Source: Thermoplasmatota archaeon (GTDB lineage: Bacteria; Pseudomonadota; Gammaproteobacteria; Burkholderiales; Thiobacillaceae). Taken from it: a stretch of 17,699 nucleotides of DNA. The position numbers and the translations under genes were made by a program. Position 1 is the first letter of the stretch. Each line of letters starts with the position of its first letter. Location of the stretch: positions 1 to 17,699 of the forward strand of contig JAMCVR010000022.1 in the NCBI GenBank assembly GCA_023475455.1. The letters run 5' to 3'. Below the pieces are notes generated by a model. The model was not told the DNA's origin and searched no databases. It saw only the letters and a program-made list of their open reading frames with translations. Positions 2,722-11,261 of the stretch are shown piece by piece.

Positions 2722-5700
2722 TCAGGCCAGCGTGTCCAGCGGCTTCGGCTCGCCGATGAGATACCCCTGCACGCAATCCACCCCCATCTCCCCCAGCTTC
2801 GCCAGCGCCTCGGCATCCTCGACAAACCCCGCCACCGTCTTGATATCGAGGAAGCTCCCCGTCTCCAGGATCGACCTCACCAGCGCCTCGTCGATCATGC
2901 TGGTGCCGATTTCGCGCACCAGGGCGCGGTCGATCTTCAGATAATCCAGCTTCATGCTCTTCAGGCGCGTGTAGGAGCTGGTGCCGGCGCCGAACTCGTC
3001 GAGCGTGAAGCGGCAGCCGTGGCGCTGCATCTGGCGCATGAACAGCTGGGTCTGGGCGTGGCCGTCGACGGCGTCGGCCTCGCTGATCTCGAAGATGAGC
3101 TTGTCGCATGGAATGTCGCCGCGCGACAGATCGGCCAGCAGCAGCTTGAGGAACAGCGGGTTGGTGACTGACTGACCGGAAAGGTTGATCGAGAAGCCGC
3201 CCAGCCGCGCGACCCGCTCGGGATGCCCGCGCATCCATTGCAGCACGTTCTTCACCACCCAGCGGTCGATTTCGGTAATGCGCTGCAGGCGCTCGGCAAT
3301 GGCGATCAGGTCGCGCGTGGCGATGGTGCGCTCGCCGCGGGTGGTGGGATGCAGCAGCACTTCGTAATACAGCGGGGTGCGTGCGGCATACGATTCCGCA
3401 CGCGCTTCAGTGCGTAGCGGATCGGAGTCCTTCAGGGCGTCGGCTGCGGCGACGACCGGCTGGCAGTTCAGGCTGAGCTCGTTGTGGGCGAGGATGGCGG
3501 TCAGTTCGTGCGCCCACTCGGCCAGCGCCAGCACGCCGCCGGTGTCGGCTTCGCTGTCGTAGGAGACGACGGGCACCCCGGATTCGCGTGCGCGGGCGCA
3601 GGCGGCGTTGGCGTTGTCGTAATAGGCTTCGGGGCTGGGGCAGTCGTTTGCCCACATCAGGCCGGCCGCGGCCTGCACGCGGTAGCGGGTGCCGTTGATC
3701 TCCTGCGGCTGGGCGGCCAGCAGCAGCTTGAGGAACAGCGGGTTGGTGACTGACTGACCGGAAAGGTTGATCGAGAAGCCGCCCAGCCGCGCGACCCGCT
3801 CGGGATGCCCGCGCATCCATTGCAGCACGTTCTTCACCACCCAGCGGTCGATTTCGGTAATGCGCTGCAGGCGCTCGGCAATGGCGATCAGGTCGCGCGT
3901 GGCGATGGTGCGCTCGCCGCGGGTGGTGGGATGCAGCAGCACTTCGTAATACAGCGGGGTGCGTGCGGCATACGATTCCGCACGCGCTTCAGTGCGTAGC
4001 GGATCGGAGTCCTTCAGGGCGTCGGCTGCGGCGACGACCGGCTGGCAGTTCAGGCTGAGCTCGTTGTGGGCGAGGATGGCGGTCAGTTCGTGCGCCCACT
4101 CGGCCAGCGCCAGCACGCCGCCGGTGTCGGCTTCGCTGTCGTAGGAGACGACGGGCACCCCGGATTCGCGTGCGCGGGCGCAGGCGGCGTTGGCGTTGTC
4201 GTAATAGGCTTCGGGGCTGGGGCAGTCGTTTGCCCACATCAGGCCGGCCGCGGCCTGCACGCGGTAGCGGGTGCCGTTGATCTCCTGCGGCTGGGCGGCC
4301 AGCGCGTGCAGCAGAGCCGCGGTTTGTGCCTCGGCGGAGGCGCGGCCGGCTGCTTCGATCCAGAACGCAATGCCGGATTCGCCTGCGCGCGCGAGCAATG
4401 CATTGGGTGGCAGCAGCGTGGGCAGATTCTGCGCGTATTCGCGCAGGATGGGCGTGCGGATTTCGGTGCCTACGGCTGCGCCGTCGGGATTGCCGATGTC
4501 GAGCTGGACCGCGCCGATTGCATAGCCGCCGTCGCTTGACTGGCTGCGCAGCCAGTTCCTGCGGATGGCGCGGAAGAAGCTCTTGCGGTTGGCGAGCCCG
4601 GTGGCGGGGTCGTGCGAGGCCTGCCACAAGAGGTCGCGCTGCATCTTCTGGATCATCGCGCTGTAGGAACGGTCCATCAGCGGCAGTTCCAGATCCTCGG
4701 TCCACTGCGCCTCGCCGGCCTCCAGCGATTGCAGCAGGTCCTGGCGCTTGAGGTCGAGCTTCTTGATGCCGCGATAGTTGGCGAACACGTACACCGGCGG
4801 CTGGTCGCCGATCCAGATCAGGTTGAGCGGGGTGTCGAGCGACTCGAACTGCAGCCAGTCGCCGACGCGCAGGCGCTCGGCCAGCGTATCCTGGGCCTCG
4901 CTCAGGGGCTCGCTCGCGGCGTCGGTGAGACGGGCGGCGACCGGGGTGTGCGGATGCTGCGATTTGTTCTCGTCGAAAAGCGCTGCGGCGAGCTGATCGA
5001 CGATGCGGTCCTGCGCGAACTTGTCGGCGCACACCCGGGTGAGCGCCCGGTCGATGCGCTGCAACAGCGTCTGGGTTTCGGCGGGGGAGGGGGCGGCCTG
5101 CTCCGGGTCCAGCCACGCGCACAACTGCTGCAGCACCTGCCAGGCTTCGCGCGCTTCGTCGCTGTCGGCGCCGTGGCGCATCTCGGCCATCAGCAGCACG
5201 TTGCGCCAGCCGCCGTTCAGCAGTTCGATCACGGCATTGGGAATCGGGCGTTCGTCCAGCCGCGCCAGCAACTCGCGCAGGATGCGCTGCTTGGCGACTT
5301 CGGCGCGCTGGCGGCCCTCGCACATTTCCTGCAGGCGGAACACGCGCGCGGCGCGCTCGTTCAGCAGCGGCCTGACCACGCGCTCAAGCTGGGTGCGCGC
5401 CTCGTCGAACACGCCCGGATTCCTGTCGGCTTCGGCGTTGATGCGGTCGGTCCAGCGGCTCATCAGCCGCAGCAGGCGCGCATCGGTGATCTTGCCGTCG
5501 TCGCCCGCCACCATGCTGATGCGGTCGAGCGTGTTCAGCACCTTGTGCGCCGGGTGGGCGGGCGAATTGAGGAATTGCGGATCGGACATCGCCAGCTTGA
5601 TGAGGCTGGTTTCCAACTGCTGGAAGAACGGCCGCATGCCCTCGCTGACCGATTTCTCGGCGTGCATGGTGTCGAACAGCGCACCGAACATGTCGACCGA

Positions 5701-7044
5701 GCGCCGCATTTCCTGGGTGACGGCGGGCGGCAGCGCGCCGGCGGCAGCCAGCCGCTGCAACACCGGCGAGTGCGCCACGCCGGGTGCGCTGCCCATCGTT
5801 GGCCGGTTACCGCTGCCGGGCGCCGCGCTTTGGGCGGCATGAGCCGGCATGGTGCCCATCGGCGCCGGCGCCGCGGAGGCGGCTTCCGGCTGGCCGCGGA
5901 AGAAGTCCAGCAGCGAACCGGTGAGCCGGCCGAGCGTGCCTTGCGGCGCCGGAGAGGCGGACACGGGGGCGTCGGCCTGCGCGAGCGAAGGCGCGTCGGG
6001 CTCGAACGGCGTGGCGCGTTGCGGCGTCATGATGGGCTGGCGACGCTCGGCTTCCGAGACCGGCAACAACGCCAGCAGCTCGGCATACAACGGGGCGAGT
6101 TGCTCGGACAACACGTCGCGCAGCGTGGCGTACGCCACCTGGCGCGCGCGCGCCAGCACCGGCACATCCTGCAGCGCGCTGCGGTAGGCATGGCCGATGA
6201 CGGCGGGACCGAAGGGGTTGTTGCTGTGATCGCAGGCAAAGCCGAACAACTGCCCGATGCGCGGCTCGATATCGGCGAGCTGTTCGCGGAACTGTTCTTC
6301 CAGCTTGTTGGCTTCGGACGAGGTGGCGAGCCAGTCCTCGAAATCCAGTTCGTCGACCAGGGCCAGTCCGCCTTCCATGGTGTCGCGGGTGGCCTGGGTC
6401 TGCACCGGACGCGCCTGCTTCAGCGCATCCAGAACCTGCTGCACGAAGCGGGCTTGCACGGTTGCCGCGTGGTTGCCGAATTCGTGCACGGCGCTCAGCA
6501 GTCCGCTGTGTTCGGCGATGCCGGAAGCATACAGGGCGGCTGCGTTCAGTTTGTCGCCCAGCACGCGCATCATCTGGTCGTGCACCTGGAGCAGGGTTTC
6601 GCTGAGCAGGGTGGCGCTGGCCTCGCGCAGCTGCGGGTGCGCGCTGGAGGGGGGCAGCGCGGCCAGTTTCTGCCGGTGTTCGGCCATGCGCAATTTTTGC
6701 AGCGCACGCAGCGCGTCGACGGGATGGGCGGCGAAGGCGACGCCGACGCCGGGCGGGCTCAGGCGCTTGAGCCGCGCGGGCACGCGGAAGGTCTGGGTGG
6801 TGCTGAGCGACATCGGGGTGAAGACGATTTCCACCTCGGCGTCGGCGCGCTTGGCCAGCGAGGCGATCGCCGCTTCCGGATTGGTGAACTTGAGGAACAA
6901 GCCGCCGAAACAGAAATCGCGGATTTCGCAGGCGATTTCGGGGTGTCCGGGCTGCGTGATGATGGCCGCCTGAGAAACGGGAAAGCGTTTGTCGCGCCGC
7001 AATTCCTGACCGGCGTGTTGGTTGTCTGTCGCGTTAGCCATCAT
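2722..7044 (-). CDS. PilZ / DUF1631-like / degenerate GGDEF / EAL protein with an in-frame internal duplication
   Basis: This is a large, probably cytoplasmic, c-di-GMP-related protein. Approximate domains: a PilZ-like start (residues 18-115, RRDKRF and a degenerate RDFCFGG); a long DUF1631-like helical region to ~700 (NNPFGP motif near 245); a GGDEF-like domain from ~810 (HDPATGLANR) whose signature is reduced to AGESGIAF, so cyclase activity is unlikely; then EAL. The EAL part has YYEVLLHP, NLSGQS, FEISE, LDEFGAG (usually DDFG), KID, VAGFVE (usually VAEGVE) and QGY, so phosphodiesterase activity is doubtful. Residues ~915-1110 are repeated at ~1110-1305. Without this 582-bp unit the protein would be about 1246 residues. 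I chose ATG 7044 (AAGGGGA ten bases upstream) over GTG 7050. The gene is divergent from the aroG leader. Confidence 0.8.
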   Translation of the reverse strand: MMANATDNQHAGQELRRDKRFPVSQAAIITQPGHPEIACEIRDFCFGGLFLKFTNPEAAIASLAKRADAEVEIVFTPMSLSTTQTFRVPARLKRLSPPGVGVAFAAHPVDALRALQKLRMAEHRQKLAALPPSSAHPQLREASATLLSETLLQVHDQMMRVLGDKLNAAALYASGIAEHSGLLSAVHEFGNHAATVQARFVQQVLDALKQARPVQTQATRDTMEGGLALVDELDFEDWLATSSEANKLEEQFREQLADIEPRIGQLFGFACDHSNNPFGPAVIGHAYRSALQDVPVLARARQVAYATLRDVLSEQLAPLYAELLALLPVSEAERRQPIMTPQRATPFEPDAPSLAQADAPVSASPAPQGTLGRLTGSLLDFFRGQPEAASAAPAPMGTMPAHAAQSAAPGSGNRPTMGSAPGVAHSPVLQRLAAAGALPPAVTQEMRRSVDMFGALFDTMHAEKSVSEGMRPFFQQLETSLIKLAMSDPQFLNSPAHPAHKVLNTLDRISMVAGDDGKITDARLLRLMSRWTDRINAEADRNPGVFDEARTQLERVVRPLLNERAARVFRLQEMCEGRQRAEVAKQRILRELLARLDERPIPNAVIELLNGGWRNVLLMAEMRHGADSDEAREAWQVLQQLCAWLDPEQAAPSPAETQTLLQRIDRALTRVCADKFAQDRIVDQLAAALFDENKSQHPHTPVAARLTDAASEPLSEAQDTLAERLRVGDWLQFESLDTPLNLIWIGDQPPVYVFANYRGIKKLDLKRQDLLQSLEAGEAQWTEDLELPLMDRSYSAMIQKMQRDLLWQASHDPATGLANRKSFFRAIRRNWLRSQSSDGGYAIGAVQLDIGNPDGAAVGTEIRTPILREYAQNLPTLLPPNALLARAGESGIAFWIEAAGRASAEAQTAALLHALAAQPQEINGTRYRVQAAAGLMWANDCPSPEAYYDNANAACARARESGVPVVSYDSEADTGGVLALAEWAHELTAILAHNELSLNCQPVVAAADALKDSDPLRTEARAESYAARTPLYYEVLLHPTTRGERTIATRDLIAIAERLQRITEIDRWVVKNVLQWMRGHPERVARLGGFSINLSGQSVTNPLFLKLLLAAQPQEINGTRYRVQAAAGLMWANDCPSPEAYYDNANAACARARESGVPVVSYDSEADTGGVLALAEWAHELTAILAHNELSLNCQPVVAAADALKDSDPLRTEARAESYAARTPLYYEVLLHPTTRGERTIATRDLIAIAERLQRITEIDRWVVKNVLQWMRGHPERVARLGGFSINLSGQSVTNPLFLKLLLADLSRGDIPCDKLIFEISEADAVDGHAQTQLFMRQMQRHGCRFTLDEFGAGTSSYTRLKSMKLDYLKIDRALVREIGTSMIDEALVRSILETGSFLDIKTVAGFVEDAEALAKLGEMGVDCVQGYLIGEPKPLDTLA
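3132..4303. repeat. Tandem duplication 3: 582-bp unit inside the EAL gene (in frame)
   Basis: Bases 3132-3721 and 3714-4303 match at a constant offset of 582, with CGGCCAGC (8 bp) at the left end, the junction (3714-3721) and the right end (4296-4303). As 582 is 194 codons, the frame is kept. The protein gains a second copy of the end of its GGDEF-like domain and the first half of its EAL domain. The second EAL half is present only once in this reading frame. Confidence 0.92.
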
Positions 7045-7177
7045 TTCCACACTTTCCCCTTTGTTTTTCCCGCCTGCTCAATACCTCGGCACGGCTGCGC
7101 TGTCCAGATTCGGGACGAAATCCTGCCGGCCGGAAGGCGCTTGGCGGGATGCGCCTGATTTTGGTAGACTGCCATGC

Positions 7178-7246
7178 ATGATTCGTGCCGCAAAGTTCTT
7201 TTTTAGCCGCTTTTATCCCACGCCGCAGGCGGTCGGGAGGCGCTGA
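7178..7246 (+). CDS. Phe-rich leader peptide of the aroG attenuator
   Basis: A 22-codon frame from ATG 7178 to TGA 7244-7246 contains AAKFFFSRFYP: three consecutive Phe codons (7196-7204), another at 7211-7213, then Tyr. It ends 23 bases before a strong terminator hairpin and lies directly upstream of aroG. This matches the architecture of known Phe attenuators such as pheA and pheST of enterobacteria, in which ribosome stalling at Phe codons under starvation prevents termination. The peptide is expected to have no function except being translated. The ribosome binding site is weak (GGTAG, 7163-7167). A possible promoter, TTGGCG (7141) and TAGACT (7165), would start transcription almost at the ATG. 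It is too short for normal gene calling. Confidence 0.8.
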   Translation: MIRAAKFFFSRFYPTPQAVGRR

Positions 7247-7297
7247 GACGAGCAGCAACGCCTTGACGAAACCGCCAGCCCGCTGGCGGTTTTTTGT
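7228..7297 (+). promoter_or_regulatory. Phe transcription attenuator of aroG
   Basis: GGCGGT at 7228-7233, inside the leader peptide codons, can pair with ACCGCC at 7271-7276, which is the 5' arm of the terminator. That pairing would be the antiterminator. A ribosome stalled on the Phe codons (7196-7213) leaves 7228-7233 free. A ribosome that reaches the stop codon (7244-7246) covers it, so the terminator forms. A further small hairpin, AGGCG 7238-7242 with CGCCT 7259-7263, may serve as a spacer or pause structure. The predicted outcome is that aroG is switched on by shortage of charged Phe-tRNA. The pairing is read by eye and not folded by program. Confidence 0.7.
7270..7297 (+). terminator. 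Intrinsic terminator (attenuator) before aroG
   Basis: AACCGCCAGC (7270-7279) and GCTGGCGGTT (7282-7291) form a GC-rich stem of about ten pairs, in practice seven strong pairs with a tight loop. It is followed by a T-run (TTTTTTG, 7290-7296). It stands between the leader peptide and aroG, not after a gene, which marks it as regulatory. Confidence 0.85.
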
Positions 7298-7338
7298 TTA
7301 AGCCGCCGCGGTCAAAGCACACAAACCGGAGCCTGGAC

Positions 7339-8415
7339 ATGACTGTCACCCGAACCGACGACACCCGCATCGAGCAAAGCGGCGAGCTGCTCGCCCCGAT
7401 GCAGGTCATGCGCGAACTGCGCGCCAGCGAAGCCGTGCACGCGCACGTGGCGCGCGCGCGCAGCGCCATTCACGACGTGCTGCGCGGGGCGGACGACCGC
7501 ATGTTCATCGTCGTCGGTCCCTGTTCCATCCATGACCCGGCCGCCGCGCTCGATTATGCGCGCAAGCTGAAGCCGCTGGCCGACGAGCTCGCGCACGATC
7601 TCATCATCGTGATGCGGGTGTATTTCGAGAAGCCGCGCACCACCGTGGGCTGGAAGGGGCTGATCAACGATCCGCACCTGGACGAGAGCTTCGACATCAA
7701 CGAAGGCCTGCGCCTGGCGCGCAAGTTGTTGCTGGAAATCAACGAAATCGGCCTGCCCTGCGCCACCGAGTTCCTCGACCTGATCTCGCCGCAATACATC
7801 GCCGACCTGGTGAGCTGGGGCGCCATCGGCGCGCGCACCACCGAATCGCAGTCGCACCGCCAACTGGCGTCCGGCCTGTCGTGCCCGGTGGGGTTCAAGA
7901 ACGGCACCGACGGCAGCCTGCGCATCGCGGTGGACGCGATCAAGGCGGCGGCGGCGCGCCATCATTTCATCTCCATCACCAAGTCGGGCCACGTCGGCGT
8001 GTTCAGCACCTCGGGCAACGAAGACACGCATGTGATTCTGCGCGGCGGCAAGGCGCCCAATTACGACGCCGCCAGCGTCAACCTGGCGTGCGGCGAACTG
8101 GCGGCCGCCGGCCTGCGCCAGCAGCTGATGATCGATTTCTCGCATGCCAATTCGAGCAAGCAGTACCGGCGCCAGCTCGACGTCGGCGCCGACGTCGCCG
8201 CGCAGGTGGCGGGCGGCGACACCCGCATCATCGGCGCGATGATCGAAAGCCACCTGAACGCGGGACGCCAGGATCTGATCCTGGGCCAGCCCCTGGAATA
8301 CGCCAAGTCGATCACCGATGCCTGCATCGGCTGGGACGACACCGAACCGCTGCTGCGGATGCTGGCCGATGCGGTGAAAAAACGCCGGCTGACCGCGCCG
8401 GCGGATGAGGAATAA
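7339..8415 (+). CDS. aroG: 3-deoxy-D-arabino-heptulosonate 7-phosphate synthase (class I, AroG/AroF type)
   Basis: It condenses phosphoenolpyruvate and erythrose 4-phosphate to DAHP, the first step of the shikimate pathway for Phe, Tyr and Trp. The 358-residue length fits the ~350-residue class I enzyme. The metal ligands known from E. coli AroG are all present: C62 (GPCSIHD), H269 (DFSHANSSKQ), E303 (MIESHL) and D327 (TDACIGW). The substrate-binding GARTTESQ and GFKNGTDG segments are intact. ATG 7339 is preceded by CGGAG seven bases upstream. An upstream TTG at 7294 lies in the terminator T-run and is rejected. The Phe-rich leader suggests that transcription responds to Phe. Which amino acid inhibits the enzyme cannot be told from sequence. 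A stand-alone unit: 4.5S RNA follows after 16 bp. Confidence 0.95.
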   Translation: MTVTRTDDTRIEQSGELLAPMQVMRELRASEAVHAHVARARSAIHDVLRGADDRMFIVVGPCSIHDPAAALDYARKLKPLADELAHDLIIVMRVYFEKPRTTVGWKGLINDPHLDESFDINEGLRLARKLLLEINEIGLPCATEFLDLISPQYIADLVSWGAIGARTTESQSHRQLASGLSCPVGFKNGTDGSLRIAVDAIKAAAARHHFISITKSGHVGVFSTSGNEDTHVILRGGKAPNYDAASVNLACGELAAAGLRQQLMIDFSHANSSKQYRRQLDVGADVAAQVAGGDTRIIGAMIESHLNAGRQDLILGQPLEYAKSITDACIGWDDTEPLLRMLADAVKKRRLTAPADEE

Positions 8416-8419
8416 GCGT

Positions 8420-8425
8420 TAAAAT
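8420..8425 (+). promoter_or_regulatory. Probable -10 box of the 4.5S RNA gene
   Basis: TAAAAT matches the -10 consensus at five of six positions. It lies seven bases before G8432, the predicted first base of the SRP RNA. It begins five bases after the aroG stop. No convincing -35 box is visible at 17 bp spacing. Confidence 0.5.
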
Positions 8426-10667: not shown

Positions 10668-11261
10668 GTGCAACCTGCCGCGCTCGATAACCTGATCAGC
10701 GCCCTGCGCGTGTTGCCCGGGGTGGGTCCAAAATCGGCGGCACGCATGGCTTACCACCTGCTGCAGCGCGACCGCCGCGGCGCCGAGGCGCTGGCCGGCG
10801 CGCTGCAGCATGCGTTGACGCATCTGCACCACTGCCGCCTGTGCAACAATTTTTCCGAGGCGGAAGTGTGCGAGGTCTGCGCCAGCCCGCGCCGCGACAA
10901 GCGGCAACTGGCGGTGGTCGAAATGCCGGCCGACTTCAACATGATGGAGGCCACGCAGAGCTACAACGGCCTGTATTTCGTGCTGATGGGGCGCCTCTCG
11001 CCGCTCGACGGCATCGGCCCGCGCGAGATCCATCTCGACCGCCTGATCGATCGCGCGCTCGACGGCGTGGTCGAGGAAGTGATCCTGGCGACCAACTTCA
11101 CGCCGGAGGGCGAAGCCACCGCGCACACCATCGGCGAACTGCTGAAGGCGCGCGGCCTGAAAGTGAGCCGCCTGGCGCGCGGCGTGCCGGTGGGCGGCGA
11201 ACTGGAATACGTCGACAGCGGCACGCTGGCGCAGGCCGTGCGGGACCGGCGTGCGGTTTAA
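10668..11261 (+). CDS. recR: Recombination mediator protein RecR
   Basis: RecR works with RecO and RecF to load RecA onto gaps coated with single-strand binding protein. At 197 residues it is full length: helix-hairpin-helix [13 protein letters not shown] at 16-28, zinc finger C56/C59/C68/C71, a Toprim domain from ~79 (VVEMPAD) and the usual C-terminal region ([13 protein letters not shown]). It starts at GTG 10668, ten bases after ybaB, with only a weak ribosome binding site. It is the last gene of dnaX-ybaB-recR. Codons 34-197 are repeated 785 bp downstream, but this copy is intact. Confidence 0.95.

Follow-up and report, generated by a model that had tools for sequence, protein, structure and literature searches.

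A putative leader-peptide attenuator upstream of the DAHP synthase gene aroG in a Thiobacillaceae genome and its relatives

The window analyzed comprises the 17,699 nucleotides from position 1 of contig JAMCVR010000022.1 (assembly GCA_023475455.1), in which aroG, encoding a class I DAHP synthase, is preceded by a small open reading frame and a predicted intrinsic terminator (Table 1). Comparison of the deduced aroG product with solved structures gave 497 bits for the Phe-sensitive enzyme 5cks and 397 bits for the Tyr-sensitive enzyme 6agl, and the best-scoring solved relatives include the Phe-sensitive enzyme of E. coli. The sole Rfam match at threshold in the window was an ordinary small SRP RNA just 3′ of aroG (71 bits). 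Five direct repeats, reported at a length of 300 nt, 99 to 100% identical and 582 to 785 nt apart, were found at 244-543/992-1291, 1872-2171/2538-2837, 3123-3422/3705-4004, 10767-11066/11552-11851, and 13927-14226/14552-14851. They cut through reading frames (e.g. 10668-11261) and look like assembly artefacts; the region 7050-8420 is touched by none of the listed repeat copies.

Table 1. Features of the aroG region (positions in the window).
Feature	Position	Strand	Evidence or remark
Long open reading frame upstream of the leader	2722-7050	−	
Probable -35 box TTGGCG	7141-7146	+	18 nt before the -10 hexamer
Extended -10 box TGGTAGACT	7162-7170	+	ends 7 nt before the leader ATG; hexamer TAGACT at 7165-7170, preceded by TGG
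Leader peptide frame, 22 codons, MIRAAKFFFSRFYPTPQAVGRR	7178-7246	+	read directly, kept in relatives; ATG at 7178, TGA stop at 7244-7246
Control codons Phe-Phe-Phe-Ser-Arg-Phe-Tyr	7196-7216	+	Phe7-8-9 at 7196-7204, Phe12 at 7211-7213, Tyr13 at 7214-7216; Phe8 and Phe9 vary synonymously among the 62 distinct family frames
Antiterminator 5′ strand GGCGGTCG	7228-7235	+	pairs with 7272-7276 and 7267-7269 in the fold
Inner antiterminator hairpin GAGGC/GCCTT + GCTG/CAGC	7237-7264	+	fold; contains the leader stop codon
Intrinsic terminator hairpin, 11 pairs	7268-7293	+	T-rich tail at 7290-7299
GGAG, probable ribosome-binding site of aroG	7328-7331	+	read from the sequence
aroG, class I DAHP synthase	7339-8415	+	PF00793, E 2.1e-94
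SRP RNA, RF00169	8432-8529		

An earlier note on this DNA had described a Phe-codon leader peptide followed by a strong hairpin with a T-run directly ahead of aroG, and both were recovered at every coordinate given there: the 22 codons of the leader comprise four Phe codons and one Tyr codon, and the predicted terminator lies between this frame and the gene. Its further claim, that all parts of a classic attenuator are in place, is supported by the conservation, aroG linkage, codon pattern, and helix co-variation presented below. The hairpin alone is weak evidence because four terminator-like sites, the one before aroG included, were found on both strands of 1.8 kb, where shuffling expects 1.6.

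The closest named relative was a Thiobacillus metagenome-assembled genome (MAG) with 92% identity (L001). In the GTDB family of this MAG an aroG protein match was obtained in 108 of 117 genomes, and 106 aroG upstream regions, that of the window included, entered the family count. An aromatic frame was present in 98 of these and a terminator in 100; 93 had the two in the expected order, and 77 had a six-pair antiterminator match in addition. The corresponding numbers in 1060 shuffles of the family upstream regions, made before a recount that corrected the cut offset of L102, L115, L118, and L123, were 94, 76, 1, and 1. The earlier note had held that relatives keeping the hairpin while losing the small frame or its Phe codons would count against it; with frame and terminator kept together in 93 of 106 regions, the family largely shows the opposite.

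Both parts together were missed in the remaining 13 regions. Four of them have the frame and no terminator by the rule applied (L144, L150, L157, L169), a hairpin being visible in L169. In L159, L183, and L189 the hairpin is kept and the small frame has a single Phe codon, and in L167 and L198 the hairpin and a promoter-like box are kept but there is no frame; the retention of the promoter-like box and the CCGCC/GGCGG hairpin in these five possibly reflects decay or retuning of the switch. In L148 the leader lies beyond the 320 nt searched, in L188 the upstream region is shortened by the contig end, and L180 and L190 have neither frame nor terminator within 320 nt. One region counted as positive, L101, carries an extra T in the run of Phe codons that breaks the leader frame and qualified via another frame; the extra T may be a real change or a sequencing error.

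Codon usage was evaluated in the aromatic frames of 22 codons found in the family, 62 distinct ones chosen without a motif filter, as a filter on the motif GGCGGTCGGGAGGC would render the fixed codons 18 to 21 circular. Codons 2 to 6 vary freely. Phe8, Phe9, and Phe12 were retained in 54, 54, and 55 frames, respectively, and Tyr13 in 47, with synonymous changes at Phe8 (42 TTT, 12 TTC) and Phe9 (48 TTT, 6 TTC). The pattern is not uniform, as Phe12 (TTT in 54 of 55) and Tyr13 (TAT in 47 of 47) show no comparable synonymous change. The Ala18 codon inside GGCGG was GCG in all 60 frames that encode Ala, the other two having Thr; Gly20 was GGG in 58 of 59, Arg21 AGG in 55 of 58, and the stop codon TGA in 60 of 62. 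As judged from these frames, constraint on the first control codons acts at the level of the amino acid and that on the GGCGG part at the level of the nucleotide sequence, as an attenuator requires.

The same codons bear on which signal would be read. Attenuation might be real and yet be set mainly by leader translation and the general growth state, with little amino acid specificity, or Tyr or Trp might be the actual signal. Such a reading would accommodate L159, L183, and L189, in which GGCGG and terminator persist with a single Phe codon, and the occurrence of Tyr in 163 and of Trp in 60 of the 188 distinct leader peptides of all sets, a collection from which L210 was left out because of a wrong frame. 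The composition of these peptides, picked for aromatic content, argues against it, with Phe making up 19.2% of the residues versus 6.9% for Tyr and 1.7% for Trp, as does the better retention of the Phe positions than of Tyr13 in the 62 family frames; we consider this reading unlikely. Besides Phe codons, most leaders of relatives contain Tyr codons and some contain Trp codons. Sensing by the predicted attenuator is better described as aromatic, with Phe first, Tyr usual, and Trp in some relatives, than as the control by Phe alone proposed earlier.

The core of the predicted antiterminator is the pairing of GGCGGT (7228-7233) with ACCGCC (7271-7276) in the 5′ arm of the terminator. Both elements are present as previously noted; the extent was underestimated, since folding yields a multihelix structure spanning 7228-7276 with more than six pairs. 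With a ribosome stalled at codon 12 and the 3′ arm of the terminator not yet made, the fold contained GGCGG/CCGCC, TCG/CGA, GAGGC/GCCTT, and GCTG/CAGC (-23.3 kcal/mol). With the ribosome at the stop codon, the terminator alone remained (-17.6 kcal/mol). When both arms were made and the ribosome was stalled at codon 12, the terminator plus the inner hairpin (-30.2 kcal/mol) was more stable than the antiterminator. Antitermination must therefore be kinetic, since in the fold completion of the 3′ arm shifts the balance toward the terminator. The 3′ blocks of the inner hairpin recur in the corresponding segments of relatives, these segments having been picked by their 5′ side.

The spacing of the elements fits these folds. 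GGCGG lies inside the leader frame in 119 of 120 leaders, the exception being L173, which is devoid of GGCGG; the distance from the last aromatic codon to GGCGG was 11 nt in 86 of the 119, and that from GGCGG to the stop codon 11 nt in 95. A ribosome covers approximately 15 nt on either side. With this footprint, the front edge of a ribosome whose A site holds Phe12 or Tyr13 would lie just short of 7228, whereas a ribosome that has reached the stop codon would cover GGCGG. The claim that GGCGGT would be free upon stalling at Phe codons and covered at the stop codon thus agrees with the measured spacing and the folds when footprint sizes of this order are used.

Further support came from comparison of pairing partners. 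The terminator stem was paired in 97.5% of cells over 53 relatives, and three of ten pairs were changed on both sides. Co-variation within GGCGG/CCGCC was set aside as evidence, as this core is nearly invariant and only the flanking helix could be tested. This second helix co-varies: cognate halves gave -4.71 kcal/mol versus -3.52 kcal/mol for permuted ones in a set of 21 distinct halves, and -5.62 versus -4.82 kcal/mol in a set of 63, with one of 5000 permutations as good in both sets. The test takes no account of kinship; it left out L101 and relied on manual placement of GGCGG in L014 and L068. In L028 the halves do not pair, and the second helix is absent.

With the upstream part covered, the core pairing reached a median probability of 0.999 in 203 leader entries, which is no evidence by itself because shuffled spacers reached nearly the same value (0.987). 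In the same entries, and in favour of an attenuator, the real spacers between GGCGG and CCGCC were on average more stable than shuffled ones (-21.0 versus -17.8 kcal/mol). In ribosome-free RNA the core probability dropped to a median of 0.19 (0.68 for the window), with GGCGG then pairing upstream. This upstream pairing was not above chance (0.87 versus 0.84 with shuffled upstream sequence), and a conserved protective 1:2 hairpin as part of the general mechanism is not supported by it. A seven-pair candidate for such a hairpin, TCCGCCA/TGGCGGA, is visible in Burkholderiaceae leaders such as L037. The folding stability of the whole leader, treated as a single RNA, was unremarkable (z = -0.53), a value that neither supports nor excludes a switch.

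The promoter elements of Table 1, which a consensus promoter scan did not list, recur at the same place in many relatives. Of 217 leader entries, 133 had an extended -10 box ending 6 to 10 nt upstream of the leader ATG, 87 of them at exactly 7 nt; where several ATGs were possible, the one near the box was preferred in this count. In the 161 entries with only one possible ATG, and hence free of this choice, it was found near the ATG in 85. Among distinct leaders the 6 to 10 nt arrangement occurred in 124 of 205, compared with 43 of 10,850 shuffled upstream regions. The best -35 candidate in the 133 entries was TTGGCG in 35 and matched TTGACA in at least four of six positions in 95; the spacer was 18 nt in 91. 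In 97 leaders of the window type, the base before the ATG was C or T in 92, and a Shine-Dalgarno-like match was found in four. With only 7 nt between the extended -10 box and the ATG, the leader mRNA is probably leaderless, and the leader peptide would then be translated from the predicted start site at the very 5′ end. In Burkholderiaceae and Oxalobacteraceae leaders, a -10-like box is instead located roughly 25 to 40 nt upstream, as assessed partly by eye.

Among the named relatives, the parts were detected in 28 of 79 (one of the 80 was too short) and failed detection in 51. The 28 positives are, by title, mainly Burkholderiaceae, Oxalobacteraceae, and Thiobacillaceae; the parts were not found in named relatives titled as Enterobacterales genera, Vibrionaceae, Rhodocyclaceae genera, Chromobacterium, or Methylotenera. 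One of those failing detection, L042 (Candidatus Burkholderia), has frame and hairpin and failed solely by the limit on frame length. The alignment of 53 leaders served to build a covariance model, R1, which was searched against 399 genomes of the order; with strict filters and rough E-values, 155 genomes had a match at an E-value of at most 0.01 and 244 had none. The 110 matches examined together with their downstream DNA were full-length; the partial ones mostly covered the terminator only. All 101 full-length matches of at least 35.4 bits (100 genomes) were located directly before aroG, as determined by tblastn of the downstream DNA. Eleven of these were from the family that provided most training sequences, and the remainder may include further leaders used in training. 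The nine weaker full-length matches were followed by aroG in three cases and not in six (L305, L308-L311, L313). At more distant second aroG copies, no leader part was found in any of eight, from eight genomes; a ninth, in G024, is too near the contig end.

This distribution speaks against the view that the open frame arose by chance, that the hairpin is an ordinary terminator or the end of a small RNA, and that the expression of aroG depends on a promoter located elsewhere. When the 320 nt preceding aroG in the window were dinucleotide-shuffled 3000 times, an aromatic frame appeared in 303 shuffles and a terminator in 291, so either element alone is expected in about 10% of shuffles; both in order appeared in seven, and with a six-pair antiterminator match in one. 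The unremarkable stability of the whole leader would also be in line with chance. Comparative evidence matters more than the shuffle test, because the criteria were written after the sequences had been seen. The frame, its codon content, the spacing, and GGCGG are conserved, every strong R1 match is linked to aroG, and the second aroG copies lack the leader; together these findings make a chance arrangement very improbable. A terminator of the upstream gene was rejected, as the long upstream frame runs on the opposite strand, which also counts against the chance reading.

A conserved leader before a biosynthetic gene could likewise be a ligand-binding riboswitch or T-box with an incidental aromatic frame. 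This is even less probable, as no Rfam family reached its gathering score in the leader (RF01859, Phe_leader, gave 15.7 bits in the window against a gathering score of 55) and conservation is limited to the frame, GGCGG, and the terminator, with codons 2 to 6 free and the spacer variable. Assignment of the leader peptide to a named small-protein family was also rejected: five leader peptides gave no match above cut-off in NCBIfam, and four of them none in Pfam.

Taken with the comparison to relatives, which makes a strong case for attenuation, we regard it as highly probable that 7141-7299 acts as a ribosome-mediated transcription attenuator of aroG governed by the supply of Phe, together with Tyr and in some relatives Trp. 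From the arrangement of its parts we infer the transcription start, leaderless initiation, stalling, termination, and the response to charged tRNA and thereby to Phe and other amino acids, as follows. RNA polymerase would start at approximately 7177-7178, on or beside the leader ATG, and a ribosome would load on the bare 5′ end of the leader RNA. With ample charged tRNA-Phe and tRNA-Tyr, the ribosome would reach the TGA at 7244-7246 and cover GGCGG (7228-7232); the terminator would form and aroG would stay untranscribed. When Phe (or Tyr) is short, the ribosome would stall at 7196-7216 without its front edge reaching 7228, and GGCGGTCG would be free to pair with CGA/CCGCC (7267-7276), enclosing the inner hairpin. 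This pairing would occupy the 5′ arm of the terminator, and aroG would be transcribed.

A wider proposal, for which we see even odds, is that one attenuator dedicated to aroG extends through much of the Burkholderiales (in the GTDB sense), that it is leaderless in many members, with the ribosome loading on the 5′ end at once, and that its codons, covering two or three aromatic amino acids, make it a single sensor of several end products at the common first step.

Attenuation by leader peptides has long been known (trp, pheA), and the pheL-pheA and pheST systems of E. coli combine a Phe leader peptide, a terminator, and alternative pairing. E. coli aroG, in turn, is controlled by TyrR. An attenuator of aroR-aroF in Corynebacterium glutamicum was reportedly described by Neshat et al. 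in 2014. The pheL-pheA and pheST attenuators, named in PMC11802643 and represented by the Rfam family RF01859, share the layout of leader, terminator, and alternative pairing with the present leader and differ in the genes controlled. In C. glutamicum, according to PMC11802643 and PMC4046766, an AroR leader peptide with Phe-Tyr-Phe precedes the DAHP synthase gene aroF, and transcription of aroR-aroF responds to limitation of Phe and not of Tyr. By this description, both systems place an aromatic leader peptide before a DAHP synthase gene; C. glutamicum belongs to another phylum, and the present leader has more Phe codons. The contrast to TyrR control drawn in the earlier note is fair, but attenuation as a solution is not unique to this group, given what is reported for aroR-aroF.

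A 5′ end at the leader ATG, predicted here, is reported in PMC7298713 for trpL of Sinorhizobium meliloti, whose attenuator RNA begins with the ATG of the leader peptide; that leader sits before trpE(G) in an alphaproteobacterium, the present one before aroG. For Burkholderia cenocepacia, leaderless transcripts are mentioned in PMC4603805, and short 5′UTRs are tabled in a supplement of PMC5688073. Among titles and abstract beginnings of the open literature, no report of an aroG leader peptide in betaproteobacteria was found; an earlier computational listing may exist in subscription papers, in supplements, or in the attenuator database that PMC1173090 mentions. The attenuator is thus of a known type, and its occurrence in this group is apparently unreported.

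The aroG leader offers a testable control point for the entry of carbon into the shikimate pathway in a large bacterial group, to which the TyrR picture from E. coli may not apply. The family-sized data set allows a constraint on translation (Phe codons) to be separated from a constraint on RNA (GGCGG) within one short frame. Should the mRNA prove to be leaderless as predicted, the leader would represent a natural system for attenuation that starts from loading of the ribosome at the 5′ end.

Some individual leaders deviate from the common arrangement. In G047 the leader (L148) is followed first by a second, short copy of the beginning of aroG (31 residues) and further on by the complete gene, and G095 has two close aroG copies, both with a leader (L116, L128). 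A leader of the betaproteobacterial type was found before aroG in JACPFU010000015.1 (L030), a MAG titled Lysobacterales and hence as a gammaproteobacterium, which may reflect misplacement or transfer. In the Oxalobacteraceae-type leaders L014, L019, L049, and L070, the GGCGGTGGAG part is followed by a conserved stretch, CGGNCGGTTCACGTAGCAGCA, located beyond the usual stop. L014 and L070 lack this stop, and the stretch is there read in frame as RPVHVAA or RTVHVAA.
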